Positions 7,340 through 28,075 of a stretch of DNA of 64,000 nt are shown here, piece after piece. Every line of letters begins with the position of its first letter. Position 1 is the stretch's first letter. This DNA is from Cellulomonas humilata (lineage in GTDB: Bacteria; Actinomycetota; Actinomycetes; Actinomycetales; Cellulomonadaceae), in assembly GCF_013359775.1 (NCBI RefSeq), contig NZ_JABMCI010000067.1:186001-250000 (forward strand). Reading direction: 5' to 3'. The notes beneath the pieces were generated by a model, which worked only from the letters and a program-made list of their open reading frames with translations, was not told the origin of the DNA and did not search any database. Made by a program: the position numbers and the translations under genes.

Positions 7340-7378
7340 GTTTCCCCGGCGCCCGTTGCGTTTGGAGCTCACGCGTGA
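7286..7378 (+). pseudogene. Duplication scar: 30-codon chimera of the pglY start and pglW end
   Basis: The ATG overlaps the stop of pglX copy 1 exactly as pglY overlaps copy 2. The peptide begins [15 protein letters not shown], against MSQTTPLRDVLDIPTHV in PglY. It ends in GAHA-stop, the same last residues as PglW, and its TGA overlaps the GTG of pglX copy 2. It is therefore the fused edge of a tandem duplication of pglX rather than a gene with its own function. Because the frame is open from ATGA to GTGA it can still hand ribosomes from one pglX to the next, which may explain why it stayed intact. Selection for the peptide itself cannot be judged from one sequence. Confidence 0.88.
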
Positions 7379-11045: not shown

Positions 11046-14000
11046 GACTTTGTCCTCCAGCTGCACGCCGGCGTCGAGGCTGCCGACCGGACGCTGGGGG
11101 AGTACATCGTCACGGATGCGATCGCGAAGTCGTTCGACTCGGCGTTGGGACTGGTCGGGAGCGCGGTCAATTCGGGAGCGCCCAAGGGTGCGTTCGTCCA
11201 TGGCTCGTTCGGGTCCGGCAAGTCGCACTTCATGGCGGTGCTCCATCTCCTGCTGACGGGGAACGCGACGGCGCGGGCCCTGCCTCGTCTCCAGGAAGTC
11301 GTCGCCAAGCACGAAGCGACCCTGACCAAGCGGTACCTCGCTGTCGACTACCACCTGCTGGGGAAGAAGTCGCTGGAGGAAGCGTTGTTCGGCGGGTACC
11401 TCGCCGAGGTGAAACGTCGCCACCCGGATAAGGCCCTGCCGGTTCTGCACAAGTCCGACTCGTTGCTGGCGGATGCGCGCGGCCTGCGTGCCGACTTCGG
11501 GGACGGGGCCTTCTTCACACGACTGAATGAGGGTGTGGCCGCCCCGGCCGGCGGAGGGTTCGGATCGAGGGTTGCCGCCGGAGGCGCCTGGACCCCTGAG
11601 TCCTTTGATGCAGCAGCCGCTGCAGGGCCCACCGACAAGCAGCGACTGGCACTCGTCTCCAAGCTGCGGGAGACGTTCTTCACCGCATCGGTCGACAGCG
11701 GTGAATGGCTGGAGATCTCCGACGGACTGCAGGCGATGACGGATCACACCCGCTCGCTCGGGTACGACGGTCTCGTCCTCTTTCTCGACGAGCTCGTCCT
11801 CTGGTTGGCCCAGCGGCTTGCGGATCCGACGTTCATCGCCACCGAGGTGGGCAAGGTCTCCAAGCTCGTCGAGACGGAGTCCGCGTCACTTGCCGTGCCG
11901 ATCATCTCGTTCGTCGCGCGTCAGCGTGACCTGAAGGACTTCATTGGCGACGCTGGTGTGGGTGCCGAGAAGCAGGGCATCGCCCAGAATTTCGGCTTCT
12001 TCGAGGGCCGCTTCGACTCCATCACGCTCGCCGCGGCGGACCTGCCGAAGATCGTCCACCAGCGGATCCTGCAGCCGACGAGCGAGCATGCAGCGGGCGA
12101 GCTCCGCTCGGCGCTCGGGCAGATCAAGGCGAACCGCGCGGCCTGGTCGGCGTTGCTGACGGATGACGCGAACGCCGACGAGCGCGCGTTCGAGCTCGTG
12201 TACCCATTTTCGCCCGCCCTCATCGATGCGCTGGTTGCACTCTCGTCCCTGCTGCAGCGCGAGCGCACGGCGCTCAAGGTGCTCTCCGAGCTGCTGTGCC
12301 GGGGACGCGATGAGCTCGTGGTGACCGACGTGATCCCTGTCGGCGACCTGTTCGACATCGTCGTCCTCGAGCAGAAGGCGCTTGCGTCCGAGATGGAGCA
12401 GCGGTTCGAGGTGGCCCGTCGGTTCTACCGCGACCGGCTGCGTCCGCACCTGCTGGCCGAGCACGGGCTGACCGAGGAGGCCGCCGCGGACCTGCCGCGC
12501 ACGCACCCGTTCCGCAACCATGACCGGCTCGCCAAGACGCTGCTCGTCGCGGAGATCGTCCCGGAGGCCAGTTCCCTGAAGAACCTGACCGCAGGGCGCC
12601 TCGCGGCGCTGAACTTCGGGTCGGTCCGTGCGATGCTCCCCGGCCAGGAGGCGACTCAGGTCCTGCAGATGGTCAAGGGTTGGTCGAGCCACTTCGGCGA
12701 GATCCGCGTCGGCACCGGCCAGGACCCGATCATCACGCTGACCTTGTCGGGCGTGGACTACGAGTCGGTCGTCGAGCGCGTCGCCGCCGAGGACAAGGCG
12801 GAGACCCGGCGGCGCCTCATCCGGGACATCCTGGGCACGGCGCTCGACCTCCCCGCACAAGAAGGCCTGCTGACCGATCGGCTGTACCACCACGTCTGGC
12901 GCGGATCGCGGCGTGACGTGGAGGTCATGTTCGCCAACGTCCGCGACTCGAACGTGCGAGATGACCAGCTGCGCGCGAACGCAGGCCGCTGGAAGCTCGT
13001 CATCGACTACCCGTTCGACGAGGCGGACTTCTTCCCCTCCGACGACTTCGCACGCCTCGACCGGCTCAAGTCCGAGGGGCTCGAGTCGGACACCGTTGCC
13101 TGGATCCCGTACTTCTTCACCGCGGAGCGGATGAACGCCGTTGGCCGGCTGGTCCTGCTGGAGTACCTCCTCACCGGCGACCGGTTCGACCAGAACGCAG
13201 ATCACCTCGCGGTCCTGGAACGCCCACAGGCGCGACGCACACTCGAGACGCAGCGTGAGTCCCTCCGAGCGGACCTCGGGGAGGCGCTCCTGCAGGCGTA
13301 TGGCATTCACGCGCCCCGAGAGTCCGACGTCGACGCGGGTAAGTCGGAACACCGCATCTTTGCGACGCTGCGCGCGGGGCTGCAGATCAGTAAGCCCAAC
13401 GCCGCGACGTTGCGCGAGGGCCTCGCCAAGGTGCTCGACGAGGCGTATGCCGACCAGTACCCCATGCACCCACGCTTCGAGCCCAGCGCGTCCGAGGTCA
13501 AGCGGAGCGAGGTCACTACCGTTCTCGCCGCAGTCCGGCAGGCCATCTCCACGCCAGCCGGCCGTCTCGACGCGCTCGACCGCCCTCGTGCGCAGGTGCT
13601 TCGTCGCGTGACCATGCCCCTCGGACTGGGCGAGGCGCACGAGAATGTCTTCGCCATCTCGCAGGCGACGTTCCGCTGGTGGGGAGAGATCACGCAGTCC
13701 GTGGCGACTGCCGCCGCAGTGAACGGCGCGATCCGTGTCGGCGATATTCGGTCCGGGCTGTCGGGCTTCGGCATGGCACGCGACGTCGAAGATCTGCTCA
13801 TCCTGACGTGGGCGGCTCTCGACGACCGGGAATACCGGCGGCACGGGGGTCGGTTGCCCGAGCCCGCCATCGGGGCACTTCCCGACGATGTCGAGATGTC
13901 CTCGCCGACCTTGCCGGACGAGGGGGAGTGGGCGGCGGCAGTCGCCCGCGCGGCGTCGCTCTTCGGAATCTCGGGCGAGCACCGCCGGTCGGCTCCCGCT

Positions 14001-14759
14001 GTGCAGCGGCTGGCCGCCAAAATCCGCGAAACGGCACGAGGTTTCGCTGCCCCCAACGAGCAACTCGTCGACGCACTGCTCCGACACGGGCCCGAGCTCG
14101 GCATCGACGTTGCCGGAGCGAACGCTCGCTTACAGACCGCCGAACGCGGGCGCGACCTTATCGTCGTGCTTAGTTCTCACGGTGACGACACGGACTTGCT
14201 CGTTGCTCTCGCTCGCGCGGACGTGCCGACCGAGGTCCAGCCGTTGGCGAAGTCGATGGCCTCCGCAGGTGAGGTGGCGAAAGCCATCTCCGGCGTCCGT
14301 TGGGACCAGGTTCGCGCTGCCACCAAGTTGCTTGGTGGCGGCGAGATTCTCGACCGCGTGCACGGTGCGGCCCGGGCGGAGGAACTGCACGCGCCGCTCG
14401 CACCGGCACTGCTGGCTGCGGGCGCGGACGCGGACTCTCTTGTCCTCGCGGAACTGGAGCAGGTTCGTCGCGAACGCGAGGAGCGGGAACGGCTCGAACA
14501 TGAGCGGCTCGAACGTGAGCGGCTCGAAAATGAGCGGCTCGAACGGGAGCGCCTGGCTCGCGAGGCAGAAGAGCGCCATCGGCGGGAGCAGGGCGGATCG
14601 GGGGAATCCCATCGACCAATCACCGATCCCGATCACGTTGACCTCGTCGTCGAGGGCGCAGGGTCGGTGGATATTGACCGCGTGCGACGCGGCGTTGCGC
14701 AGTTTGCACAAGACCACCCGGGCAAGACGATCCGGGTCACATGGAGCGTCGTGGAATGA
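10986..14759 (+). CDS. pglY: BREX type 2 ATPase PglY
   Basis: A 1,257-residue P-loop protein. Walker A is GSFGSGKSH at 73-81 and a Walker B-like LVLFLDEL has D268/E269. PglY is the large ATPase of BREX type 2 (counterpart of BrxC) and is required for exclusion with PglZ. The ATG overlaps the stop of pglX copy 2 (ATGA), and the stop overlaps the pglZ start in the same way. The long helical middle is typical of the family. Near the C-terminus (about residues 1,155-1,200) lies a charged coiled-coil stretch rich in Arg, Glu and Leu, encoded in part by a 15-bp tandem repeat. An in-frame start further upstream (10,815) would lie wholly inside pglX, so it was not used. Confidence 0.92.
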   Translation: MSQTTPLRDVLDIPTHVAAADFVLQLHAGVEAADRTLGEYIVTDAIAKSFDSALGLVGSAVNSGAPKGAFVHGSFGSGKSHFMAVLHLLLTGNATARALPRLQEVVAKHEATLTKRYLAVDYHLLGKKSLEEALFGGYLAEVKRRHPDKALPVLHKSDSLLADARGLRADFGDGAFFTRLNEGVAAPAGGGFGSRVAAGGAWTPESFDAAAAAGPTDKQRLALVSKLRETFFTASVDSGEWLEISDGLQAMTDHTRSLGYDGLVLFLDELVLWLAQRLADPTFIATEVGKVSKLVETESASLAVPIISFVARQRDLKDFIGDAGVGAEKQGIAQNFGFFEGRFDSITLAAADLPKIVHQRILQPTSEHAAGELRSALGQIKANRAAWSALLTDDANADERAFELVYPFSPALIDALVALSSLLQRERTALKVLSELLCRGRDELVVTDVIPVGDLFDIVVLEQKALASEMEQRFEVARRFYRDRLRPHLLAEHGLTEEAAADLPRTHPFRNHDRLAKTLLVAEIVPEASSLKNLTAGRLAALNFGSVRAMLPGQEATQVLQMVKGWSSHFGEIRVGTGQDPIITLTLSGVDYESVVERVAAEDKAETRRRLIRDILGTALDLPAQEGLLTDRLYHHVWRGSRRDVEVMFANVRDSNVRDDQLRANAGRWKLVIDYPFDEADFFPSDDFARLDRLKSEGLESDTVAWIPYFFTAERMNAVGRLVLLEYLLTGDRFDQNADHLAVLERPQARRTLETQRESLRADLGEALLQAYGIHAPRESDVDAGKSEHRIFATLRAGLQISKPNAATLREGLAKVLDEAYADQYPMHPRFEPSASEVKRSEVTTVLAAVRQAISTPAGRLDALDRPRAQVLRRVTMPLGLGEAHENVFAISQATFRWWGEITQSVATAAAVNGAIRVGDIRSGLSGFGMARDVEDLLILTWAALDDREYRRHGGRLPEPAIGALPDDVEMSSPTLPDEGEWAAAVARAASLFGISGEHRRSAPAVQRLAAKIRETARGFAAPNEQLVDALLRHGPELGIDVAGANARLQTAERGRDLIVVLSSHGDDTDLLVALARADVPTEVQPLAKSMASAGEVAKAISGVRWDQVRAATKLLGGGEILDRVHGAARAEELHAPLAPALLAAGADADSLVLAELEQVRREREERERLEHERLERERLENERLERERLAREAEERHRREQGGSGESHRPITDPDHVDLVVEGAGSVDIDRVRRGVAQFAQDHPGKTIRVTWSVVE
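14487..14546 (+). repeat. Four 15-bp tandem repeats inside pglY
   Basis: Four direct copies of a 15-bp unit close to gagcggctcgaacgt encode a five-residue R/L/E/x/E coiled-coil repeat. The unit is a multiple of three, so copy-number change would lengthen or shorten the coil without shifting frame. Confidence 0.85.
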
Positions 14760-17488
14760 GTGTGGACAGCAGTCGCCGGATTCGCCCTGCCGATGCGGGC
14801 TATGTCCGGCAACGAGCGGCCGCGTTGGTCGAGCGCGCGTCCGAGCGAGTCGAGATTCTTCGCGCCGCTCCCGTGTGGGACGGGCCTGAAGCCCTCGTCG
14901 AGGCGGGATTCACTGTCCGTGTGCGAGCTTGCGTCTCAGCGTTGGCGGTGCTGGATGCGTACGAGCAGCTCGGTGCGGAGGACTACCTCGTCGTGCTGAC
15001 GGACCGGGACGCCCATGATCTTGGCGACACGATCCTGCTTCGGGCGCGAGGTCACCGACCGCACGTCATCGATCCGTGGTCGGCGGTCCCCGAGATGTTC
15101 GGCGCACGAACCGCTGATCGGGACCTTCGTGCGCGGGGCTCATGGGTGCCCGAGGCCCTGCTCAGCCAGCGGCCGTCCCCTGGATGGCCGGCGGCTCCGG
15201 CCGGGACAGTGACCGAGGCCCACGCCCTGAGCAATCTGCTCTCCCACGTGTTGGGCATGCGGTTGCCGACGACCCTCGACGAGGGGAGCTTGCTCCTGCG
15301 GCTCGACACCCCCGAGGGGCGGCTGGCGTGGCAGTCGACGTCGCCCACGCTCCGCGATGGGCTCGCGGGCTGGGCCGGCGACGGCCTCGGCGCTGCGGCC
15401 GAGCTCGCTCTGCGCATCGCCGCGGCCCAGCAGGTTTCGGTCTGCGGGGTAGGCCTCGCGCTCGACGTCGTCTGGCCGCGTCCTGAAGATCACGCGGTGG
15501 TGACGGAGGACCAGAAGGCGGCGCGCATTCGCGCGGAGGCGAAGATTCACCCTGCCGCCAACGGGATCAGGTCGCGCGCCCTAGCCGATGCGGCCAGGTT
15601 GATCGCCACCCGCCACGAAGACTCCGGCGATGCGGCGTTGGGTGTCGCGCTCGACGCAGCGGAAGCCGTCCTCGGCGACCTTCAATGGGCCGACGGTGCC
15701 GAACGAAGTGACTGGTTGGCCACCGGGCTCCGAGCGCGGCTGCGGCATCTGACCGAGCACATCCGCGCCAATCTTTTGATGAACCCGGCCGGGGCTGGTC
15801 CCGAGAGCCAGTTGGCAGAGCTGCTCGAACACCGGCTCGCGCGCAGGAATGCGCGGGAGATCGTCGCCGCGCAGATGGCCGTGCGGCTGGTTCGGTGGCT
15901 TGGCTCACCGGACGGCGCCGGGCGCCCGCCGGCCGGCTCCCTGACAGAGGCGCTCCACATCCAGGTCGACGATGGCGCGTGGGTTGATCATGCCCTCGCC
16001 GCCGTGCACACGGGCTCGGCATTCCCCGAGGTCGCGCTGGTCTACGGAGAACTCGTTACGCGTGTTCGCGGGCAGCGACGCGAGCGTGACGCGATGGCGG
16101 CGGCCCTGCTCGCTCGTGCAACGGCCGATGACCAACCCCTCGACGACGTCGTTCCCCTCGAAGACCTGCGCCAGCGGGTCGTGGTTCCCGTGGCCAAGGC
16201 CACAGGCACGCTCGTTGTCGTCGTAGATGGAATGTCCGCGGCCGTCGCAACCGAGATCGTCGACTCGGGGCTCGCGCGGACGTGGACCGAGTTGCTCCCA
16301 GCCAACTCTGCACGCCGGGCCGTTGGGCTCGCCGTGCTGCCGAGCATGACCACGTACTCACGGACCTCGCTGTTCGCCGGTGCGTTGCAGACGGGCACGC
16401 AAGACGCCGAGAAGAAGCGGTGGCGCGACGATCTCGGTGCCGCGATCTTCCACAAGGAACAGCTGCAGACGGTGGCTGGCGCCATGCTCCCCGCGAGCCT
16501 GGTCGAGGCGCTCGAGGGACCGGACCGCGTCATCGGCGTCGTGCTGAACACCGTCGACGACGCGCTCAAGAGCGCCGACCCGGGCGGGACAGCATGGACC
16601 GACGAGACAGTCCGCTACCTGGCGCCGCTGCTCAACGCGGCGTACATCGCCGGCCGCACCGTCATCCTGACCTCCGACCACGGGCACGTGATCGAACGCG
16701 GCGGGGCGCTGCGCAACTACGCCGGCTCGGATGCACGCTGGCGTACCGCCGACTCCGTCGCGGCGGATGGCGAGGTGTTGGTGGCGGGACGCCGCGTTCT
16801 TACTCCCGGCGGTCGCGCGGTACTGGCGTGGGATGAGGACATCCGCTTCGGGAAGCGGTCCGCCGGTTACCACGGCGGGGCGAGCCTTGCCGAGATCACC
16901 GTGCCGATCATCGTTCTGGCCCCTACGCCCGATGCCGAGATCGCGGGATGGCGCGCGGGGCCACCGCAGATGCCGAGCTGGTGGAACGACCCAGTCATCG
17001 CTCGTCCGGATCCGTCGGTGGGTGGCAGGCGCGCTCTTCGAGCCGGCCCAGTGGTCGTGTCGGACCCGCCGGCCGCACGATCAAGCAAGTTGCGCCGGGA
17101 CGCTGAGGATGCCGGGCAGGGAATGCTCGGCTTCGACGTTGCCGACCCTGTCACGCCCAAACCCGTTGATGCGGAGTCCGCGCTGGTGGACGCACTCCTA
17201 CAGTCCCCGACTTACGCGGAGCAGCGTCGGCACAGCGGTCGCCACCCTCTCGACGACGGCGTCGTGCAAGCTTTCGTGCTCGGTGCGATTCGACGCGGTG
17301 GGCGAGCGCATCGATACACCCTTGCGGCAGAGGCAGGGGTGGCAACGCCGCTTGTGGCGGGGACGATCGTGAGTCTCCGTCGGCTCCTGAATGTGGACAT
17401 GTACCCCGTCATCAAGGAGGACGAGGACGGAGTCACCCTCGTGCTCGACGCGGCGCTCCTCCGTCAGCAGTTCGACCTGGGATCCTGA
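14756..17488 (+). CDS. pglZ: BREX type 2 alkaline-phosphatase-fold protein PglZ
   Basis: A 910-residue PglZ. The phosphatase-fold core shows VVVVDGM with D491 and a metal-site DHGH at 641-644. PglZ is the signature protein of BREX and Pgl systems. The ATG overlaps the pglY stop (ATGA), which fixes the start over an in-frame alternative at 14,741. The last ~100 residues (807-910) form a separate, winged-helix-like domain beginning ESALVDALLQSPT. That domain is clearly homologous to the C-terminus of the minus-strand gene at 20,933-21,766. brxD starts 4 nt after the stop. Confidence 0.94.
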   Translation: MSVDSSRRIRPADAGYVRQRAAALVERASERVEILRAAPVWDGPEALVEAGFTVRVRACVSALAVLDAYEQLGAEDYLVVLTDRDAHDLGDTILLRARGHRPHVIDPWSAVPEMFGARTADRDLRARGSWVPEALLSQRPSPGWPAAPAGTVTEAHALSNLLSHVLGMRLPTTLDEGSLLLRLDTPEGRLAWQSTSPTLRDGLAGWAGDGLGAAAELALRIAAAQQVSVCGVGLALDVVWPRPEDHAVVTEDQKAARIRAEAKIHPAANGIRSRALADAARLIATRHEDSGDAALGVALDAAEAVLGDLQWADGAERSDWLATGLRARLRHLTEHIRANLLMNPAGAGPESQLAELLEHRLARRNAREIVAAQMAVRLVRWLGSPDGAGRPPAGSLTEALHIQVDDGAWVDHALAAVHTGSAFPEVALVYGELVTRVRGQRRERDAMAAALLARATADDQPLDDVVPLEDLRQRVVVPVAKATGTLVVVVDGMSAAVATEIVDSGLARTWTELLPANSARRAVGLAVLPSMTTYSRTSLFAGALQTGTQDAEKKRWRDDLGAAIFHKEQLQTVAGAMLPASLVEALEGPDRVIGVVLNTVDDALKSADPGGTAWTDETVRYLAPLLNAAYIAGRTVILTSDHGHVIERGGALRNYAGSDARWRTADSVAADGEVLVAGRRVLTPGGRAVLAWDEDIRFGKRSAGYHGGASLAEITVPIIVLAPTPDAEIAGWRAGPPQMPSWWNDPVIARPDPSVGGRRALRAGPVVVSDPPAARSSKLRRDAEDAGQGMLGFDVADPVTPKPVDAESALVDALLQSPTYAEQRRHSGRHPLDDGVVQAFVLGAIRRGGRAHRYTLAAEAGVATPLVAGTIVSLRRLLNVDMYPVIKEDEDGVTLVLDAALLRQQFDLGS

Positions 17489-17492
17489 CGCC

Positions 17493-18848
17493 GTGGTCGT
17501 CATCAGCCCCCGTCGCCGTTCCGAAGTCATCGACGCACTCCGTCGTGGCACCGTGCCCCAACAGGGGCTTGACGTGCTTGCCGTCGGCCTGGAGAAGTTC
17601 GAATCCGCAATCGACGGCGAGCTCACGACCGTCGCCAACGGCGGCGGTCAGTTCAAGGCGGTTCGCGGCGAGTACGGCTCAGGCAAGACCTTCTTCACTC
17701 GCTGGCTCGTGGAGCGCGCTAAGCGTGAACGCTTTGCCGCCGCGGAGATTCAGATCTCCGAGACAGAGACCCCGCTGCACAAGCTCGAGACCGTGTATCG
17801 CCGCCTCGTCGAGAGCCTGTCGACTGCCGAGGCGCCTCCAAGTGCACTGCGGGACGTTGTCGACGGCTGGTTCCACGTCCTGACCGAGGACGTCATCGCG
17901 ACCGGCACGGTGGACCCCTCTGATGCGACAGCACTCGAGCGCGCGACCGACGAGCTGATGGAACTGCGTCTCGCCGGCGTCAGTCGCACTGCACCCGCGT
18001 TTGCCACAGTGCTCCGTGGCTATCGACGTGCTCGGGCCGAGGGGGACGCGGTTCAGGCAGAGGGTTTGTTGGCGTGGTTGGGCGGTCAACCGCACGTCGC
18101 GGCATCGGTGCGACGTGCCGCGGGAGTGCGCGGGGAGCTGGACCATTTCGGCGCACTCGGATTCCTTCAGGGGCTGCTGACGGTCCTGCGGGACTCCGAC
18201 TACCGAGGTCTGGTCGTCGTGCTGGACGAGGTCGAGACCTTGCAGCGAGTGCGCTCCGACGTCCGCGAGAAGTCGCTGAACGCGTTGCGCCAGCTCATCG
18301 ACGAAGTCGACGGTGGCCGGTTCCCCGGCCTCTATCTGGTGATGACCGGGACGCCTGCGTTCTTCGATGGACAGCAGGGCGTGCAGCGCCTCGCTCCTCT
18401 GGCGCAGCGGCTTGCCGTGGACTTCGACACCGATGCGCGGTTCGACAACCCGCGGGCTGTCCAGATTCGGCTTCCCGGCTTCACGCCCGACTCGTTGCGG
18501 TCGCTCGGCATGCGGGTGCGCGACATCTACGCCGCGGGCGCAACGTCGCCCGACCGGATCGAGACGGTGGTCGACGACCGGTACATCGAGCTGCTCGCAG
18601 GTGCGGTTGCGGGGGAGCTCGGCGGCCGCGTCGGTGTCGCCCCCAGACTGTTCCTCAAGAAGCTGGTAGGCGATGTGCTCGACCGGGTCGATCAGTTCGC
18701 CGACTTCGACCCTCGCCAGCACTACAAGCTCACCATCTCGGGCTCCGAGCTGACCGAGACCGAGCTCGAAGCGAGCCACCTGGGCGATGCGCGCGCGGCG
18801 ATCCGCACCGCACCTGCGAGCGTCGACGACATCGACCTCGATCTGTGA
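17493..18848 (+). CDS. brxD: BREX type 2 ATP-binding protein BrxD
   Basis: A 451-residue ATPase with Walker A GEYGSGKT (K65) and Walker B VVLDEVETL (D245). BrxD is a marker of BREX type 2 and is normally encoded between pglZ and brxHI, as here. I chose the GTG at 17,493, four bases after the pglZ stop, because the protein then begins VVVISPRRRSEVIDALRRG, a usual N-terminus for the family. The next gene starts 7 nt after the stop. No unusual residues were seen in the nucleotide-binding motifs. Confidence 0.92.
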   Translation: MVVISPRRRSEVIDALRRGTVPQQGLDVLAVGLEKFESAIDGELTTVANGGGQFKAVRGEYGSGKTFFTRWLVERAKRERFAAAEIQISETETPLHKLETVYRRLVESLSTAEAPPSALRDVVDGWFHVLTEDVIATGTVDPSDATALERATDELMELRLAGVSRTAPAFATVLRGYRRARAEGDAVQAEGLLAWLGGQPHVAASVRRAAGVRGELDHFGALGFLQGLLTVLRDSDYRGLVVVLDEVETLQRVRSDVREKSLNALRQLIDEVDGGRFPGLYLVMTGTPAFFDGQQGVQRLAPLAQRLAVDFDTDARFDNPRAVQIRLPGFTPDSLRSLGMRVRDIYAAGATSPDRIETVVDDRYIELLAGAVAGELGGRVGVAPRLFLKKLVGDVLDRVDQFADFDPRQHYKLTISGSELTETELEASHLGDARAAIRTAPASVDDIDLDL

Positions 18849-18855
18849 GCTCCGC

Positions 18856-20928
18856 GTGAGCGAGACGGGGCTGGACTCGGCGCTCGAGTACCACATCGTC
18901 AACACCCTCGGGTGGCCCGCCCTGCGCCCTTTGCAGCGGGCAGCGGTGCGGCCGGTGCTCTCGGGGGCCGACACGCTGCTCGTCGCTCCGACAGCGGGAG
19001 GCAAGACCGAAGCGGCAATGTTTCCCCTGCTCAGCAGGATGATCGCCGAAGAGTGGACGGGCACCTCGATCATCTATGTGACACCCCTGCGTGCCCTCCT
19101 CAACAATCTGCACCCACGCCTCGAGGCGTACGCCGGGTGGCTCGGCCGAACAGTCGGACTCTGGCACGGTGACGTCGGTGACGGCGCCCGGCGCAAGATC
19201 CGATCGGAGCGGCCCGACATCTTGTTGACCACGCCGGAGTCCCTCGAGGCGATGCTGGTCTCCCGGCGCACCGACCACCGGATCATGTTCGCGAACGTTC
19301 GCGCTGTCGTCGTAGACGAGCTCCACGCATTCGCGGGTGCGGACCGCGGATGGCACCTGCTCGCGGTCCTCGAACGCATCCAGCGCATCGCGAATGCACC
19401 GCTGCAGCGCATCGGGCTTTCCGCCACCGTGGGCAACCCTGCCGACATGATCACGTGGCTGCGGGGGAGCAGTGAGTCGTCTGCATCGCGGCCACCGGGA
19501 GTGTTCGTCGACATCCCACCTGCTGCAGACGCGCCCGCCGCCCAGATCACGCTCGACTACGTCGGCTCGCTGACCAACGCAGCCGTGCTGCTCTCGCAGA
19601 TGTTCCGCGGCGAGAAGCGTCTCGTCTTCTGCGAAGCGCGCGCTCAGGCCGAGGAGCTGGCGTTCGAGCTCCGGGAGCGTGGAGTCACCACGTACGTCTC
19701 GCACTCATCGCTCTCGGTCGACGAACGACGGCTTAGCGAGCGGGCCTTTGCCGACGCGCACGACTGCGTCATCGTCGCGACCTCCACCCTCGAGCTCGGC
19801 ATCGACATCGGCGACCTCGACCGCGTGATCCAGATCGACGCACCCCGAACTGTCGCATCGCTGCTGCAGCGCCTTGGGCGTACCGGTCGACGTCCAGGGT
19901 CGGTGCGCAACATGCTCGTCGTCGCCACGAGCAGTGACGCTTTGCTTCGTGCTGCCGGGCTCCTGCTTCTCTGGGGACGGGGGTACGTCGAGCCGGTCGA
20001 GCCGCCGCCGTCCCCAAGGCATCTGGCAGCACAGCAGTTCCTTGCGCTCGCGCTCCAAGAAGGGCGGTTCGGCCCGAGCACGTGGCGGCGATGGTGGGGT
20101 GACAGTGAGGTCATGGCCGACGGCGACGTCGTGCTGGACTACCTGCGCGCCGAAGAGTTCTTGGTCGAGGACGAAGGCATCTGCTTCATGGGTCCGCGCG
20201 CGGAGAGGGAGTTCGGGCGGCGGCACTTCATGGATCTGCTCGCGACGTTCACGGCCGACCTGGAGCTGCGAGTTCTTGCCGGAACGAAGGAGATCGGCTT
20301 CGTCTCGCCGCTTTCGGTCGGGAGCCATGCCCCGGGCGCCGAGTCGCGACTGCTCTTGTCCGGGTACGCATGGTTTATCGAGCACGTCGACTGGGAGAAG
20401 CACACAGTTTTCGTCCGGCCGGAGCCGGAGAAGGGGGTCTCGCGGTGGTCGGGCGGAGCAGTGTCCGAGTCGTTTGCCTTGAGCCGAGCTCAACGCGACG
20501 TGCTGCTTGGCGCAGATCCCCGCGTCACGCTCTCCAAGAGGGCCGTGGACCGACTTGCGTCCGTGCGTGAGGAGGAGCTCTGGACCGTTGACCGCGGCGG
20601 GCTCGTGCTGGAGCGTCGCGGACCGCGGAGCCGGTTGTGGACCTGGGCGGGCCGGCGGGCGAACGAGACCATCGTCGGCGCACTCGGCATCGCCGCCGAC
20701 GCCGCGTCGAACAACCCGTACATCGATATGCCGGCCGAGATCGGCCCCGCCGAGCTGCGGGCTGCGGACATCTCCACGGCGCTGCCGGTAATCAGCCCCG
20801 AGGCCATCGAGGGGTTGAAATTCTCAGCAGCACTGCCCGCGGATCTCGCTCGTGCCACGCTCGCCGAGCGATTCGTCGATCGTCCCGGCGCCCTCGACGT
20901 TGTCCGTTCGTCGATCGTCGTCCTGTGA
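18856..20928 (+). CDS. brxHI: BREX type 2 Lhr-like helicase BrxHI
   Basis: A 690-residue superfamily 2 helicase. Motif I is APTAGGKTE (K50), motif II DELH (154-157), and motif VI sits in LLQRLGRTGRRPG. It resembles Lhr-type helicases and is the last core gene of BREX type 2. The GTG at 18,856 lies 7 nt after the brxD stop. The stop is only 4 nt from the stop of the convergent gene at 20,933, so there is no room for a separate terminator and transcripts from the two sides must meet here. Confidence 0.92.
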   Translation: MSETGLDSALEYHIVNTLGWPALRPLQRAAVRPVLSGADTLLVAPTAGGKTEAAMFPLLSRMIAEEWTGTSIIYVTPLRALLNNLHPRLEAYAGWLGRTVGLWHGDVGDGARRKIRSERPDILLTTPESLEAMLVSRRTDHRIMFANVRAVVVDELHAFAGADRGWHLLAVLERIQRIANAPLQRIGLSATVGNPADMITWLRGSSESSASRPPGVFVDIPPAADAPAAQITLDYVGSLTNAAVLLSQMFRGEKRLVFCEARAQAEELAFELRERGVTTYVSHSSLSVDERRLSERAFADAHDCVIVATSTLELGIDIGDLDRVIQIDAPRTVASLLQRLGRTGRRPGSVRNMLVVATSSDALLRAAGLLLLWGRGYVEPVEPPPSPRHLAAQQFLALALQEGRFGPSTWRRWWGDSEVMADGDVVLDYLRAEEFLVEDEGICFMGPRAEREFGRRHFMDLLATFTADLELRVLAGTKEIGFVSPLSVGSHAPGAESRLLLSGYAWFIEHVDWEKHTVFVRPEPEKGVSRWSGGAVSESFALSRAQRDVLLGADPRVTLSKRAVDRLASVREEELWTVDRGGLVLERRGPRSRLWTWAGRRANETIVGALGIAADAASNNPYIDMPAEIGPAELRAADISTALPVISPEAIEGLKFSAALPADLARATLAERFVDRPGALDVVRSSIVVL

Positions 20929-20932
20929 CGCT

Positions 20933-21766
20933 CTACGCGGCGTCGACCCGGAACTGGTCGCGCAGCAGCGGCAGATCCAGGCGCACAGTCGTGCCGTCAG
21001 CGTCCAGCGCTAGCACGGTGTAGCCCTCGAGGTTCAAGAGCCGGCGCATCGCTGCGCAGGTCGGATCAAAGGAACGGCCTTCGAGTCCAGCGGCGGCAGC
21101 GAGCTCACGCGAAGACGCACGGCCATCGCCCGCGGCGAGCTGAGCGACGACCGCGTGGACGAGTCCGATCCGAAGGGCGTGGCGGCCGGATTTCACGTGC
21201 TGTTCGCGGAAGGTCGGGCTCTCGACCAGAGCCGAAGCCAGGGCCGCCTCGGGGCCGCTCGGATCGATGGCGCGCGGCTGGAGCGCTGGCTGGGTGCGGC
21301 GTTCAGCAAGCGTCGGTCGATCGGCGACTCGCGACAGCGGAGCGGCTGTGGGCCGTGTGCGTCCCACGCTCGGAATCGTTGGGTCCGGTAGCAGGCCCCA
21401 GTCACCGTTGTCGATCCGGAGGGTCAGCTCGCCCGCCGCCGCTGCCATCGCCACTGGATCCTCGAGGAACTCCTCCAACACGACCCGATCAAGACGGCCG
21501 CCTTTCGTCGCCTTGCCCTGGTAGTGAGGGAGCTGGGTCATGAGGTCTGCCGTCTTGCGGGAGACGCCGTTGATGTTCCGGAAGTTGGCTGGACGCCCTT
21601 CCGTCGGATGGACGAACGGCACCTGCAGTCGGCGCGAGAGCTCCGCGACGCGTGGATCGGACGGTCGCAGTTCCCACCAGTCGTTCTGGCGGACGAGATC
21701 ACACGCCAGGATCAGCTCCTCGCGGCTCCAGTTGATCTGCACGTACCCATTCTCCGCGATGCTCAC
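20933..21766 (-). CDS. Fusion of an HNH-nuclease-type N-terminal domain with a PglZ C-terminal domain
   Basis: A 277-residue protein. Residues ~1-110 (WSREELILACDLV, ELSRRLQVP, NFRNINGVSRKTADL) resemble the N-terminal domain that precedes HNH nuclease domains in many actinobacterial restriction proteins, but no HNH motif follows. Residues 173-274 align without gaps to residues 807-907 of the PglZ in this locus; I count about 46 identities in 101 positions, with shared blocks SPT, SGRH, RRLLN and LLR.QF. The GTG start overlaps the stop of the upstream helicase gene (GTGA), so the two are coupled. By inference it is a BREX accessory or docking protein, or a modification-sensing factor that contacts PglZ's partners. 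The function is unknown. Confidence 0.75.
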   Translation of the reverse strand: MSIAENGYVQINWSREELILACDLVRQNDWWELRPSDPRVAELSRRLQVPFVHPTEGRPANFRNINGVSRKTADLMTQLPHYQGKATKGGRLDRVVLEEFLEDPVAMAAAAGELTLRIDNGDWGLLPDPTIPSVGRTRPTAAPLSRVADRPTLAERRTQPALQPRAIDPSGPEAALASALVESPTFREQHVKSGRHALRIGLVHAVVAQLAAGDGRASSRELAAAAGLEGRSFDPTCAAMRRLLNLEGYTVLALDADGTTVRLDLPLLRDQFRVDAA

Positions 21767-23514
21767 CTAGGTCCGATGTGCCGGTGGAGGTACGCGCGAA
21801 GTGCTGGATCGCACGCGTACACATACGTCCCCTGCATGCCTCGGGTCAGGAGGACTCGGTAGATGTTGACGATGAACTCGAGCAGGTCATCGTCGGAGTA
21901 GACCCGACCGAGCCGCGGGTTGTTCTCCTTGCCCTTGCGATCGCGGTAGTGATGGCGATGGACTACGAGCCGCCCACTGGCCATGTCGTAGGCGAGCTCG
22001 GGGCCGATGATGACGCCGGCGTAGTTCAGGTCGTAGCCCTGGACCGTGTGGATCGACCCGACCTCGTTGAGCGAGCCGGACGAATTGATCCAGTCCTTGT
22101 CGGTGCTGTTCCAGCGCAGCCTGCAGCCGTCGAGCTCGATGTCGAACGCGTCACTGTCCTTCTTGCTCCTCCATTCCCAGGCGTACCCCGCTACGAGACG
22201 CGCAAGGCCGATGTCGTGGTCCCGGGAGACGATCGCGCTCTGCATGTCGCCGAGGTCGTCGAAGACACGCAGGTCGTAGCCCTCGTATGCCCGGCGATCG
22301 GGCGCGAGCTGCGCCGGAGCAGGATGGAGGAGCTGTCGCACGAACTCCACGTAGTCGGCTCCAGCCTTGACGCGCATCTGCGTCCTCAAGGTGTACAGCC
22401 TGTCCGTCTGCCGTGCGGATCGAGCAAGTTGACCCAGGGTTTCGTTAGGCAGGTCTGCCGGACGGATTCGTTGCTCGGCGTCGACGAGAAAGATCTGGTG
22501 ACTGCTCTGTGCGCGGATCCAGTCCAGCTGAGTCTTTGCGTTGTCGTCCGCCCCGAACAGGCGCTCGTTGATCTCGCCGAACTTCTTGTTCTGCGCTGCC
22601 GAGGGCTGGTTCGCGCGTTGATTTAGCCGGTGGGTCTCGTCGACGATCAGCAGGTCGAACTTGTCTCCGCCGCCGACTTGGGATGGGGAGAGCACCATGC
22701 TCTTGTCGAGTCCCGGAGTGCGGTGGAACACCCGCTGGATCGAGGTGCGCAGGGACTGCTGCGGCACGACGAGGCCCATGCGGAAGCCTGCGAGCAGCTC
22801 CCTATGGCCCTCAGCGAAGTAGTCGGCAAACATCCAGTCCCGATCGAGCACGTCCGCGGGTGCGGTCGAGGCGATGTCGGTGAGCAGCTTCATCAGGTAG
22901 ATCGCGACGATTGTCTTTCCGGTGCCTGGCTGCCCCTGGATCACCATCGTGCTAGGCGCGCTAGCCTCGAGATCCGCAAACAAGCCCTCGAGGATGTCGT
23001 CTACGGCGACGGCCTGGTCTTCCGTCAACGCCTTGAACGGTGACAGCTTGAATAAATCGCTGTTCTCGATCTCGGTGATCGTGCTCGAGAACAGGCCCTC
23101 GTGACGTAGCCGCTCGAAGATGTCCTTGAACCGCGTCCGGTAGGACTCGCGGTGAAAATAGTCTGCGTCGGTGATGCCGCCGTTGAGATTGAGGACGGCA
23201 AAGTTGCCGTCGCCGGAGAACCACCGGATCAGATGGGACTCGAGGTCGAGGCACACCGACTTGTTGAACTCGTCGTCGACCACGACTCGGACGTTGCGCA
23301 TCCCGCTTTTCGAGCCTGAGTCGATGTGCTGCCGGATGCGCGTCCGGACGTTCAGCGTCTCGCCGACATACACGGACGACGTGGTTGGTGCCGATGTCGG
23401 GAGGCCGTCAATGACGTAGACGACGGGCCAGTTGGCGCCTCGGGGATCGGAAGCAGCCCAGGCGTCAAACGCGCGGGCGGTGAACTCGAGACGCTCAAGC
23501 TCAGAGCTGGTCAT
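21763..23514 (-). CDS. GIY-YIG nuclease domain fused to a DUF2075 helicase/ATPase
   Basis: A 583-residue protein. The N-terminal ~120 residues form a GIY-YIG nuclease-like fold (VVYVIDG, then SVYVGETLNVRTRIRQH, then a Glu in LDLESHLI). The rest is a DUF2075 P-loop ATPase of the superfamily 1/Schlafen-like kind, with Walker A GQPGTGKT and DEXX-type LLIVDETHRLN. Such proteins occur in defence islands, often beside a small MazG-like pyrophosphohydrolase, as here. The ATG lies inside the mazG 3' end (14-bp overlap) and the stop overlaps the next start, so all three genes form one coupled operon. It probably acts on DNA or RNA; the substrate is not evident. Confidence 0.85.
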   Translation of the reverse strand: MTSSELERLEFTARAFDAWAASDPRGANWPVVYVIDGLPTSAPTTSSVYVGETLNVRTRIRQHIDSGSKSGMRNVRVVVDDEFNKSVCLDLESHLIRWFSGDGNFAVLNLNGGITDADYFHRESYRTRFKDIFERLRHEGLFSSTITEIENSDLFKLSPFKALTEDQAVAVDDILEGLFADLEASAPSTMVIQGQPGTGKTIVAIYLMKLLTDIASTAPADVLDRDWMFADYFAEGHRELLAGFRMGLVVPQQSLRTSIQRVFHRTPGLDKSMVLSPSQVGGGDKFDLLIVDETHRLNQRANQPSAAQNKKFGEINERLFGADDNAKTQLDWIRAQSSHQIFLVDAEQRIRPADLPNETLGQLARSARQTDRLYTLRTQMRVKAGADYVEFVRQLLHPAPAQLAPDRRAYEGYDLRVFDDLGDMQSAIVSRDHDIGLARLVAGYAWEWRSKKDSDAFDIELDGCRLRWNSTDKDWINSSGSLNEVGSIHTVQGYDLNYAGVIIGPELAYDMASGRLVVHRHHYRDRKGKENNPRLGRVYSDDDLLEFIVNIYRVLLTRGMQGTYVYACDPALRAYLHRHIGPR

Positions 23515-24075: not shown

Positions 24076-24183
24076 ATGACACTGACATCCCATGCAGCGA
24101 CCGGCTCTCGTGCAATGCCATTGCTGTCTTGTCGCGGCTGTGCCGGGACCGGTCCCGCACGGGGGTGGCGTGGTGAGTGCTGA
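24076..24183 (+). CDS. Possible 35-residue leader peptide upstream of the GTPase gene
   Basis: An ATG 8 nt after a TAGCCT box (24,062-24,067) opens a 35-codon frame. It ends in a TGA at 24,181, overlapping the chosen GTG start of the GTPase gene by 11 nt. It could be a leaderless leader ORF coupling translation into the GTPase gene. The peptide matches nothing I recognise. The evidence is only the promoter-like box and the overlap, and chance is quite possible in DNA this rich in G+C. The other ~300 bp of the gap 23,768-24,172 hold the 32-bp repeat and no other gene that I can see. Confidence 0.25.
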   Translation: MTLTSHAATGSRAMPLLSCRGCAGTGPARGWRGEC

Positions 24184-27100
24184 AGGGACGAATTCTGTGG
24201 CAAAGAGTGTCGACGATGTCGTCCCCGACCGCCCGACCTGGAACGGGGATCTGGCTGAACTCGAAGCGGCGCAACAGCCGGGCCTGACGGGTGCCGTCGC
24301 TGAAGCCGCAGCCTCCGGGCTCGCAGAATTGACCCGTTTGGACGCGATCGTCGCCGAGGCCGAGTCGCGCCTGCTGGACGCGTGGCTCGAGATATCGTCC
24401 CCCGGATCAGTCCTGTCCAAGGACGACGACGGGTTCTACGTCATTCTGGAGACCGTCGTAGCCGACCTGAGAGATCGGCTCGAAGACAGTCGTCGCGTGG
24501 CGTCGACATTCAACATCGCGTTCTTCGGCCGAACCGGAGCCGGTAAGAGCACCCTGCTATCGGCTCTCGGCAGGCTCGACGGACAGTTGGTCTCAGACGG
24601 CCGAAGTGACTTCACCACTGACGTCCAGCCGCTCGACTGGCACGGCTGCCGTCTCTTTGACACCCCCGGAATCAATGGGTGGGGCCGGACGCGCCCACGA
24701 CGGGACCTCGAAGAGGCCGCCAGAGAAGCCGTCGAGGTCGCCGACATCGTGTTGCTCTGCTTCGACAGCCAGAGTCAACAGGCATCAGAATTCACCAAGG
24801 TCGCCGCATGGGTGCGCGCCTACCGGAAGCCGGTCATCGCCGTTCTCAACGTCCGCAACACGATGTGGCGCCACCCCGCCAGGGTCGCCGCCGCCGCTCA
24901 GCGCCAGGGGCTGTCCCGAACGGCACAACAGCACGCCGACAACATCACCAGCGAACTCGAAGCGATCGGTCTTCAGGATGTGCCAGTTGTGGCCATCCAC
25001 TCGAAGCGCAGCCTGTTCGCCCGCGCCTCGACACCGTTCTTTGGCCCCGCGGCAACGGAGCTCGAGGCCGAGAGATCGACGTACGGACTCGCCTACCTGG
25101 ACCGGATGTCTAACCTGCCGGTCCTCGAGCGATTGATCTCTGCGTGCGTTGTCGAGGGAGCTGCCGACCTCAGGCTCGCTGCGCTGCGTGAGGGCCTCCA
25201 GGCTGCACTGCTGGCCTGGGCGGACGAGATCGAGTTTCTCGCAAACCAACAGCAGCGTCGCGGGAAGACGATCGAAGGGGTCGTTGCAGAGGGTCTGAAC
25301 ATCCTCGGCTATCCCGATCCGAAGAGACGCCGAGCGCTCTTGCCGCACGACGATGGCGCCGACTTGGTGGAAAGGTTGGAGGCTGCGCGGGGCGAGCCAT
25401 TCACGGCGCCTTCCTCGGGACGTTTGGAAAGCCACGTGAGGCATCTCCTCCGATCACACCTCTACCAGCATCGCGATCATTCGCACGGGGCAGCTGACGA
25501 GCTAATTCTTGACGCCTTCGACCGGCGCCGTCAGGTTTCCAAGGACGAGTTCGAGTCGAAGGTCTTCGATGTCGAGGAGGTCGCCAAGTCAATAGCAGCT
25601 GTAGGCAACCTTGCAGCGGACTTCCTCGTGGAGAATTTGGACATCGTGAGAATCGACGCGCGGATCGACCTGGACCTGATCGACCGCTCTCCGACCGCGA
25701 TCAGGGGAAACACGGGCCTAGGGCGTCGCCGCGCTGCTGACGCGCTCAAGGCCGGCGGACTTCTCAGCAGCGGAACGGGGGCCGCCCTCGGAGTCGTGCT
25801 GTTGACGAACTTCTGGAACCCCGCCGGCTGGACCGCAGCCGCCATACTCGGCGGGCTGGGCATCGCGAGCGCCGTGCTCGGTTTCTTCGGCAAGCGCAGT
25901 CGAAGGAGCTCAGAGGAGCGTCGCGTCGAAACCCGCGCTCGCGCCTTGGCGGACGCACGGACCAGCGTCAACACGTTCTTCGATGAGTGCGAGGCCCAGC
26001 AGTTGGCCAAGATCATGGACGACGCTTGGGCGAGCGCCCGGAAGTCCTTGGCGGGTCAGCTTGCTGAGGCGCTTCATGTTCGCGCCGGCTGCCACAGGCT
26101 CGCGGCGGATGCGGTGTGGTTGCGTGAACAGGCAGCCAGTCAACCGCCGGTGCCGTCACCGGCCGACATCATCCTCTGCGCGTCCGGACGGGTGCTCGCG
26201 GACGCGTCTTCGAGCCTGCCCGTGCGAGCCTTGCTCCTTGGCGAGGACTGGCTTGACGACAGCAGCCACGGCGACCCATCGGAACAACTGTCCGAGGCAG
26301 ATCGCGAGTTCCTCGCAGCGGTAGAGCAGGAGAACAGACATTCCTTCGCTTCCTACCTCGCGAGCACTTACCGGGAATTTGTAGAACCGGTCGAGAGCTG
26401 GTTGGACAGTCTCGCGTCATCCGCCTACCTGGACGAGACCGCCCAGACGGAGGTGCGGCGGGCCAGAGCACTTCTCGGCCAGCCACCGAGGGTCGTCCTC
26501 TTGGGTGACTACAGCTCCGGAAAGACAAGCCTCATCAAACGGTTACTGGCAGAAGCCGGGGTGGAGACCCCTCGAAACATGCAGGTCGACGCGCGTGCGG
26601 CCACGAGCACGCCGAGCCGCTACGCGTTCGGCCGCCTGGAGCTGGTCGATTCCCCCGGATTCCAGAGCGGGCACGATGAGCACGACGCCGCGGCGCTGGA
26701 GGCGTCCGACGTGTCGGCCATGACCGTCGTCGTGCTCCACGTCAACCTGCTGATCGGTGACACGTCTCGACTGGACCGGTTGCTCCTCGGCGACGAAACC
26801 AGCGTCGGCAAGGGTCGCCGCACGATCTTCGTGGTCGGCCGCATCGACGAGATTGGTGTCGATCCCATCGCCTCGCCCCGCGAGTTCGTCGTGCGCAGAC
26901 GCCAGAAGGTGGACGAGTTGCTCAGCATCCTTGAATCCAAAGGCATGGGCATCGCGCGGGATCAGGTGCTCACGCTCGCTGCTGATCCGTACGGACTGGT
27001 TGCGGACAAGCCGGCGGTGACGGCAGCGGACTACGCCGCAGGCAATCGCATCTGGGATGGTGCAGGCGCGATGAGCGCGCCCCTCCTTAGCGCCGACGAT

Positions 27101-28075
27101 CAGACGCTGTCCGGGATGGCCGCTGTGACGGCGATTGATCTCGGCCGGTCAGCCCTCCTGGCCGCACAACACCGAACCAAGTTGGAGATTGACGATCTGG
27201 AAGGCGCCCAGGCCGCGGGTGAGCGCTTCGAGCAACTCATGGAGACTTCGCTCGCGGAGCTCAGATTGTTGGAGCAGTCTGTCGAGCGGCGCGTGCGTGG
27301 AGCGATCGATGACCACGCCAACGAGGTCTTGGCTGAGGCGTTGGGCGCTGGTCCCGACGAGGTCGAGACCATGTCGAAGCGCTTGCAGTTCTGGTGGCAG
27401 GACCCTCGACTGGGTAGCGCGATCGCCGCGCTTGAGCCCGAGATCAGACGCAATCTCACCGATTGGTCGCGCCGTCACGCCTCCGAGTTCGAGCGTGAGG
27501 TTCGACGCATGATGTTCACGGTGGAGGCTGACGAATACGACGCGATGGGCAAGGACGCGAAGAACAGCGTCAAAGACGGGGTCCGCGTTGCGGGCGAGAT
27601 CACAAAGCACACGGCGACGATGGTGAAGGCGGCAGGAACTCGCGACGCCGTCTACGCCATCGTCAAGTCATTCGGAGGCAAGTTCAAGCCGTGGGGGGCC
27701 GTCAAGCTCGGTACGAAGGTGGCCAAGGTTGGCGCCGTCCTGGGCGTGATAGCGGTCGGATTCGATATAGTCGAATGGGTGGTCGCTGCAAAGAAGGAAG
27801 ACAATCGCGAGAGCGCGCGACTGGAGGCCGTGCGACATGTGCGCGCCACCCGAGAGATCGTCGCGAAGGATCTCTTGAGTCAACCAGATAGCCCGATCGA
27901 AGCATTGCAGGAATTGGGAGCCGGCATCACCGAGAGCCTGGGACGCCTCCAGATCGCCGCTGACGAGCGGCGAAGGTCAGCGCAGGAGGCCAGTCAGCGG
28001 CTCGATAGTGTGAGCACACTTCTTGACGCTGGCGACACGTTGTCCCACCGAGCCACAACCGAGGTAACCACGTGA
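24173..28075 (+). CDS. Large dynamin-like protein with two GTPase domains
   Basis: About 1,300 residues with two G domains. The first has G1 GRTGAGKST (from G119) and G3 DTPG (163-166). The second has G1 GDYSSGKTS (from G778) and G3 DSPG (826-829). Between them a hydrophobic hairpin (about residues 536-575) and, near the C-terminus, VLGVIAVGFDIVEWVVA could enter the membrane. Helical regions surround them. This fits bacterial dynamin-like GTPases, some of which protect membranes during phage attack. I chose the GTG at 24,173 (GGGGG 7 nt before it); an in-frame ATG at 24,092 would add 27 residues. The stop overlaps the next start (GTGA). The pair lies between 32-bp direct repeats, as though it were a cassette. 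Confidence 0.85.
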   Translation: MSAEGTNSVAKSVDDVVPDRPTWNGDLAELEAAQQPGLTGAVAEAAASGLAELTRLDAIVAEAESRLLDAWLEISSPGSVLSKDDDGFYVILETVVADLRDRLEDSRRVASTFNIAFFGRTGAGKSTLLSALGRLDGQLVSDGRSDFTTDVQPLDWHGCRLFDTPGINGWGRTRPRRDLEEAAREAVEVADIVLLCFDSQSQQASEFTKVAAWVRAYRKPVIAVLNVRNTMWRHPARVAAAAQRQGLSRTAQQHADNITSELEAIGLQDVPVVAIHSKRSLFARASTPFFGPAATELEAERSTYGLAYLDRMSNLPVLERLISACVVEGAADLRLAALREGLQAALLAWADEIEFLANQQQRRGKTIEGVVAEGLNILGYPDPKRRRALLPHDDGADLVERLEAARGEPFTAPSSGRLESHVRHLLRSHLYQHRDHSHGAADELILDAFDRRRQVSKDEFESKVFDVEEVAKSIAAVGNLAADFLVENLDIVRIDARIDLDLIDRSPTAIRGNTGLGRRRAADALKAGGLLSSGTGAALGVVLLTNFWNPAGWTAAAILGGLGIASAVLGFFGKRSRRSSEERRVETRARALADARTSVNTFFDECEAQQLAKIMDDAWASARKSLAGQLAEALHVRAGCHRLAADAVWLREQAASQPPVPSPADIILCASGRVLADASSSLPVRALLLGEDWLDDSSHGDPSEQLSEADREFLAAVEQENRHSFASYLASTYREFVEPVESWLDSLASSAYLDETAQTEVRRARALLGQPPRVVLLGDYSSGKTSLIKRLLAEAGVETPRNMQVDARAATSTPSRYAFGRLELVDSPGFQSGHDEHDAAALEASDVSAMTVVVLHVNLLIGDTSRLDRLLLGDETSVGKGRRTIFVVGRIDEIGVDPIASPREFVVRRRQKVDELLSILESKGMGIARDQVLTLAADPYGLVADKPAVTAADYAAGNRIWDGAGAMSAPLLSADDQTLSGMAAVTAIDLGRSALLAAQHRTKLEIDDLEGAQAAGERFEQLMETSLAELRLLEQSVERRVRGAIDDHANEVLAEALGAGPDEVETMSKRLQFWWQDPRLGSAIAALEPEIRRNLTDWSRRHASEFEREVRRMMFTVEADEYDAMGKDAKNSVKDGVRVAGEITKHTATMVKAAGTRDAVYAIVKSFGGKFKPWGAVKLGTKVAKVGAVLGVIAVGFDIVEWVVAAKKEDNRESARLEAVRHVRATREIVAKDLLSQPDSPIEALQELGAGITESLGRLQIAADERRRSAQEASQRLDSVSTLLDAGDTLSHRATTEVTT

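Follow-up and report, generated by a model that had tools for sequence, protein, structure and literature searches.

A PglZ-type winged-helix domain on an accessory protein beside a type-2 BREX operon: a candidate portable docking module

Introduction

In the window, the whole stretch of 64,000 nucleotides of DNA analysed here, a type-2 BREX operon is followed by a convergent gene whose small product ends in a domain resembling the C-terminus of PglZ. This arrangement raises the question of what the tail of PglZ is doing on another protein, and which partner it engages there. The first-pass annotation, made from the sequence alone, took it for a separate copy of the PglZ domain and suggested that its protein shares a docking partner or DNA target with PglZ, in the role of a regulator or a decoy.

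Results

The BREX operon and the accessory gene

The operon beside the accessory gene is a type-2 BREX operon, in which PglW, PglX, PglY, PglZ, BrxD and BrxHI are encoded together (Table 1). The two tandem pglX genes scored 1498 and 1503 bits against a cut-off of 400, and the catalytic domain PF08665 of the resident PglZ was matched with 30.7 bits.

Table 1. Position of the BREX genes, the accessory gene and the other carriers of the PglZ C-terminal (PglZ-C) domain
Feature	Position	Strand	Remarks
pglW	46-3666	plus	969 bits against a cut-off of 990; cut by the window edge, with the match starting at position 177 of the profile
pglX, first copy	3663-7286	plus	BREX-2 methyltransferase model, ~1500 bits
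pglX, second copy	7375-10986	plus	BREX-2 methyltransferase model, ~1500 bits
pglY (ORF)	10815-14759	plus	PADLOC model
pglZ of type-2 BREX, 915 aa	14741..17488	plus	NF033446 723 bits, cut-off 200; PDLC02565 726 bits
PglZ-C domain (predicted winged helix) in PglZ, residues 811-913 of 915	17171..17479	plus	gapless alignment; profiles
brxD, ATPase	17466..18848	plus	PDLC02494 3.5e-205; Pfam BrxC_BrxD 1.4e-145; ORF opens at 17391, start codon not fixed
brxHI, helicase	18787..20928	plus	PDLC02503 3.6e-276
accessory gene, 277 aa	20933..21766	minus	ORF, GTG start; convergent with BREX operon
PglZ-C domain (predicted winged helix) of accessory, residues 172-274	20945..21253	minus	BLASTP; PADLOC and NCBIfam PglZ profiles; AlphaFold2
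N-terminal domain of accessory, ~residues 10-112	21431..21739	minus	also present at the front of HNH restriction nucleases
GIY-YIG-like / Schlafen group 3 helicase gene	21763..23514	minus	overlaps accessory gene by GTGA
433-aa carrier, same genome as window	L012:8613-9914		11 kb before window, between ZacC-like and DrmD-like helicases
386-aa ORF, C. endophytica (G058), full-length accessory relative	L013:3905-5065		adjoins pglW (pglW confirmed)
350-aa carrier, G046	L014:6257-7309		inside operon, between pglZ and brxD
353-aa carrier with two hydrophobic segments, G393	L075:10857-11918		directly downstream of brxHI
kinase-like carrier with BrxD-BrxHI, G592	L080:6322-13085		carrier abuts brxD-brxHI; vWA and PP2C genes precede it
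kinase-like carrier with BrxD-BrxHI, G693	L079:6238-10930		carrier abuts brxD-brxHI

The accessory protein matched no Pfam family at E <= 1, and so neither the PglZ catalytic domain PF08665 nor an HNH domain, and a sequence search for a solved-structure relative of the whole protein returned nothing convincing. A full-length relative, about 45-47% identical overall with both halves kept, is encoded in C. endophytica. It was the one full-length relative recovered from 84,980 genomes scanned with two exact peptide patterns, which miss divergent relatives.

The product of the overlapping gene matched SLFN-g3_helicase in Pfam (2.7e-66) and gave a GIY-YIG match of 21.2 bits, below the cut-off of 22.6. 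Relatives of this helicase, 54-65% identical, were present in 9 other genomes of 98 and had neither half of the accessory within 1.5 kb on each side, so the overlap of the two genes looks local and a fixed partnership between the helicase and the accessory was rejected.

The surroundings are rich in other defence genes. At 24092-28075 of the window, a 1327-aa ORF matched the LeoBC (residues 66-660) and LeoA (782-1303) models, constituting a dynamin-like fusion beside BREX. In the 20 kb before the window (L012:3253-19309), a defence island lies directly ahead of the BREX operon and encodes ZacB- and ZacC-like, DrmD-like, Hsp70-like, EVE/NOV_C-like and PDC-S11 proteins.

The C-terminal domain is shared with PglZ

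The first-pass annotation had counted by eye about 46 identities in 101 positions of a gapless alignment of the two C-termini, and this was borne out by the best register found, accessory residues 173-274 against PglZ residues 812-913, with 46 of 102 residues identical. The local alignment score of the two C-termini was 193, compared with 28.8 +/- 5.1 (maximum 62) in 1,000 shuffles, and BLASTP of the accessory against the resident PglZ gave E = 4e-20. Two independent PglZ profiles matched this part of the accessory and no other, placing both C-termini in one family. The PADLOC model PDLC02565 covered residues 149-275 (1.4e-21, model positions 786-908 of 910), and NCBIfam NF033446 (BREX_PglZ_2) covered residues 142-273 (1.5e-20, positions 757-890 of 890), its score of 73.1 bits coming from the C-terminal part only and lying below the curated cut-off of 200. 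The remainder of the protein, described earlier as unrelated to PglZ, indeed behaved as such, since residues 1-150 scored 44 and shuffled sequences 37.8 +/- 5.7 (maximum 62, n = 200). In PglZ the domain occupies the extreme C-terminus, ending within 9 residues of the stop codon in 58 of the 58 proteins examined.

In the AlphaFold2 model, built from three sequences, a pair of helices precedes a winged helix that has three short strands and ends in a further helix. The pLDDT per 10-residue block was 74-91 over residues 171-277 of the accessory and poor, about 50-65, in its N-terminal half. The structural neighbours proposed by VIA-align (best Z 7.1; TrmBL2, Z 6.9; Zur, Z 6.7) were largely DNA-binding winged helices; as all Z values were below 8, a level that common arrangements also reach, they speak for the fold and nothing more. 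Foldseek with the predicted structure gave no match at E <= 0.001, and the sequence search for solved-structure relatives of the domain gave nothing convincing, the best being an HTH regulator at 0.032.

DNA binding is frequent among winged helices. The domain examined here is not basic, its net charge averaging -1.2 in 58 PglZ copies, with a range of -5 to +6, and being -5 and -10 in the two kinase-borne copies. Among the polar residues, conservation over the 66 copies was highest at S183, Q189, R195, N245 and Q271 (83-98%), and the middle of the recognition helix was variable. The C-terminal domain of the accessory is predicted to be a winged helix, as published for type-2 PglZ, for which a three-stranded winged helix has been described where type 1 has a beta-sandwich (PMC12839542, in part).

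The N-terminal half resembles the front of HNH restriction nucleases

Residues 10-112 of the accessory matched proteins in Nocardia, Rhodococcus, Psychrobacter, Priestia and Sinorhizobium plasmid records, with residues 13-111 being 52.5% identical over 99 residues to the Nocardia protein. A Pfam HNH domain (PF01844) was located behind this N-domain in four of five relatives examined; the fifth, from Sinorhizobium, is without HNH and is followed by a separate gene annotated as an HNH endonuclease. Judged by sequence, the N-terminal half corresponds to the front domain found in HNH restriction nucleases, the HNH part itself being absent. Because most of the relatives have HNH and the accessory does not, the latter resembles an HNH restriction enzyme in which a PglZ tail has taken the place of the nuclease, and by analogy its N-terminal half may recognise DNA. 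The search for a solved-structure relative of the N-domain by sequence gave nothing convincing (best 0.4).

Other proteins carry the same domain

The notion of a separate copy held insofar as the domain is detached from PglZ. There is, however, more than one such copy: Cellulomonas has no fewer than four accessory carriers, with three kinds of N-terminus, and one further carrier was found in another family of the same order, and kinase-like carriers in two more genomes (Table 1). All the other carriers were matched by the PglZ model, were encoded by full-length open frames and kept the conserved positions. Such extra copies are rare, being present near type-2 BREX loci in 4 of 57 genomes (G000, G046, G058 and G393) in a survey of 58 PglZ copies with flanks of up to about 10 kb on each side. 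This survey left out G448, G450 and G777, which lie on short contigs, and G625:C7. Weak partial matches to the domain (14/26 genomes, E 1e-7 to 1e-3), many of which resemble Lrp- or TetR-type helix-turn-helix regulators by eye, were left out of the counts.

The N-termini of the carriers differ widely. That of the 433-aa carrier gave no Pfam family and no plasmid match. Pieces of it were found in three other Cellulomonas (L161, L162 and L163), with one stop codon inside each aligned stretch and no PglZ-C domain within 1.5 kb on each side. For the N-terminus of the 350-aa carrier, a Pfam match below the cut-off and one partial, unannotated plasmid match were obtained. The N-termini of the G592 and G693 carriers look kinase-like by eye and had no Pfam match at E <= 0.1, and PADLOC matched only the tail, BrxD and BrxHI in both loci. 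In these two genomes no full PglZ, no PglX over the cut-off and no PglY was found. The kinase-type BrxD-BrxHI loci possibly represent a separate defence system.

A different situation was encountered in G511, which has a 97-codon domain fragment and is without BrxD. This fragment is probably the decayed end of a pglZ gene, because the tree sets it beside another PglZ copy (100/95).

A tree was computed from 112 columns of 66 domains, and many of its forks were unresolved. In it, the accessory copy and that of the 433-aa carrier formed a pair (100/96) away from the window genome's own PglZ, and were joined by C. endophytica at 99/74 and by G046 at 95/70. The kinase-type copies grouped elsewhere (94/94); the G393 copy was unplaced and the position of the G046 copy was unsure. 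Since carrier copies pair together and apart from the resident PglZ, the domain has moved as a unit among unrelated N-termini. By this tree, the four Cellulomonas carriers belong to one domain lineage and are not copies of their own resident PglZ, the case being weak for G046.

BrxD-BrxHI is the constant companion of the domain

In a class sample of 394 genomes, the domain was detected in 48, BrxD (E < 1e-100) in 50 and both in 47. Accordingly, 47 of the 48 domain-bearing genomes had BrxD, most of this overlap being simply BREX-2 itself. Of the three genomes with BrxD only, G563 and G727 revealed the domain with a better profile, and in G680 brxD is on a 4.4-kb contig. Six genomes of the sample with only a distant, SngB-like BrxD had no domain match. 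The end of the domain was within 200 bp of the aligned brxD start in 50 of 60 copies, including both kinase-type carriers.

Wide occurrence of the domain without BREX, which would speak against a BREX role, was not seen in the same sample, as just three of the 48 domain genomes were without a full PglZ: one has the decayed fragment and two keep BrxD-BrxHI. The latter, G592 and G693, are the informative cases, with BrxD-BrxHI kept and the BREX core not found. That the accessory docks where PglZ does, on a common partner or DNA, is therefore a reasonable proposal, given that the C-termini belong to one family and that the domain travels on unrelated proteins. The part of the earlier claim that did not stand is the breadth of the partner: because BrxD-BrxHI is the component that stays constant, it is a likelier partner than PglX or PglY.

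In part of PMC12839542, BrxD and BrxHI are described as a tightly linked dyad, in which BrxD, an ORC/Cdc6-type ATPase, is suggested to load BrxHI. Published genetics bears on the same point. According to part of PMC4365076, S. coelicolor J1934, with a pglZ1-834 allele without the last 130 codons, is Pgl-negative and phage-sensitive, and the truncated allele still suppresses PglX toxicity. The deletion of 130 residues should remove the domain, as the latter ends no more than 9 residues from the stop codon in all PglZ examined. By analogy, the domain may serve the attack side and not the PglX-restraining side of the system.

Discussion

The reading preferred here, to which we give a probability of about 0.4, is that the domain is a portable docking winged helix, by which type-2 PglZ would engage BrxD-BrxHI and the accessory would recruit BREX attack to DNA recognised by its nuclease-derived half. 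The PglZ-C winged helix would dock PglZ on the dyad of ORC/Cdc6-like ATPase and helicase, and the other carriers would plug into the same site. The accessory would be an HNH restriction nuclease with its nuclease part replaced by the docking domain; its front half would find some DNA, to which its tail would then call BrxD-BrxHI and, through that module, the BREX attack. The presence of the same tail on several unrelated proteins suggests a portable plug linking different sensors to BREX. Direct binding of the domain to BrxD or BrxHI would fit the gene linkage and the published genetics, and recruitment rather than competition would be the role of the accessory. Against docking count the location of the accessory gene on the strand opposite to the operon, the distance of the 433-aa carrier from brxD, the G511 fragment without BrxD and the rarity of accessory carriers. 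A further point against it is that TerB_C, which occupies the corresponding position before the SngB-SngC pair in four loci, gave no profile similarity to the domain in a comparison of shallow alignments.

An unlikely, though serious, alternative is that the shared property of the domain is DNA binding, for example to an operator or target common with PglZ, which would make the accessory a regulator or a second DNA anchor. It agrees with the winged-helix model and its largely DNA-binding structural neighbours, and such modules are treated mainly as DNA anchors in part of PMC12839542. The lack of an excess of basic charge and a recognition helix that varies while a polar set elsewhere is conserved fit this explanation poorly, and a BREX operator would leave unexplained the linkage to BrxD where PglX, PglY and PglZ were not found. 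The main rival reading, though still harder to credit, is that the accessory is a competitor or brake, filling the docking site of PglZ on BrxD-BrxHI and holding BREX off, or acting as a decoy for phage inhibitors of that site. The accessory has the domain without any PglZ catalytic part and is encoded in a separate, convergent transcription unit; moreover, the loss of the domain from PglZ suffices to lose defence (PMC4365076, in part), so blocking the site should switch defence off. However, a conserved recognition domain of nuclease type would be superfluous in a pure competitor, and so would N-termini as diverse as those of the other carriers. Nor was a phage copy of the domain found when the accessory was used as the query in viral contigs and phages, single-protein queries being prone to miss distant copies.

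The least credible explanation, and a very improbable one, is recombination debris, in which the pglZ end was fused by chance to neighbouring defence genes and is functionless on its new carriers. The pglZ end adjoins brxD, where recombination would be easy, defence genes are crowded together in the region, and the G511 fragment shows that remnants occur. As pglZ ends against brxD, the domain of the kinase-like carriers could also be a functionless passenger that recombination moved together with brxD. Debris is hard to reconcile with the intact frames and conserved positions of all listed carriers, with the presence of the accessory form, conserved in both its halves, in two Cellulomonas species, or with the single domain lineage of the four Cellulomonas carriers, the last point being weak for G046.

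Returning to the docking module, a broader and rather doubtful version of it can be envisaged, in which BrxD-BrxHI would form an attack module in its own right, able to accept different front ends, with PglZ-C as the universal socket adaptor. Its clients would be PglZ, restriction-derived sensors, a membrane-type protein and the vWA-PP2C-kinase cassette. The kinase-type loci suggest that BrxD-BrxHI also works outside BREX. Under this broader version, BREX-2 could be called by triggers unrelated to PglX methylation. The locus would also be a case of sensor exchange among defence systems, in which a restriction enzyme appears to have swapped its nuclease for a BREX plug. A mobile domain keeping company with BrxD-BrxHI also provides a concrete, testable partner for the C-terminus of PglZ.

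Several known systems are comparable to parts of this locus. In Shango (SngA with TerB_C, SngB and SngC), a BrxD-like ATPase and a BrxHI-like helicase likewise come after a front protein, and no profile similarity was found between the TerB_C of SngA and the PglZ-C domain. The idea that TerB_C is a distant relative of PglZ-C was unsupported, with an hhalign probability of 0.3% obtained from shallow alignments and only four TerB_C sequences. It had come from the four TerB_C proteins found in 118 genomes (L088-L091), each of which is encoded immediately before BrxD-like and BrxHI-like genes, in the position that PglZ takes in type-2 BREX. Restriction-type proteins beside BREX also include accessory nucleases, BrxU (GmrSD family) being one, and the auxiliary effectors presented in part of PMC12839542; those are catalytic nucleases, and none is described in that part with a PglZ docking domain.

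The C-terminal winged helix of type-2 PglZ (PMC12839542, in part) is like the accessory domain in family, by profile and gapless alignment, and in its C-terminal position. The difference is that the copy in the window is also found on a protein without the PglZ catalytic part, and the portion of PMC12839542 covered describes no free copies. No free copies on other proteins were described in the main-text parts of the open-access literature searched either; what is new here is the free PglZ-C copies on non-PglZ proteins, the domain and the BREX system themselves being already known. The other half of the accessory has its counterpart in the HNH restriction endonucleases of Nocardia, Rhodococcus, Psychrobacter and Priestia, which have the N-domain in common with it (up to 52.5% over 99 residues). 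Unlike these enzymes, the accessory is without the HNH catalytic part and has a predicted PglZ winged helix in its place.
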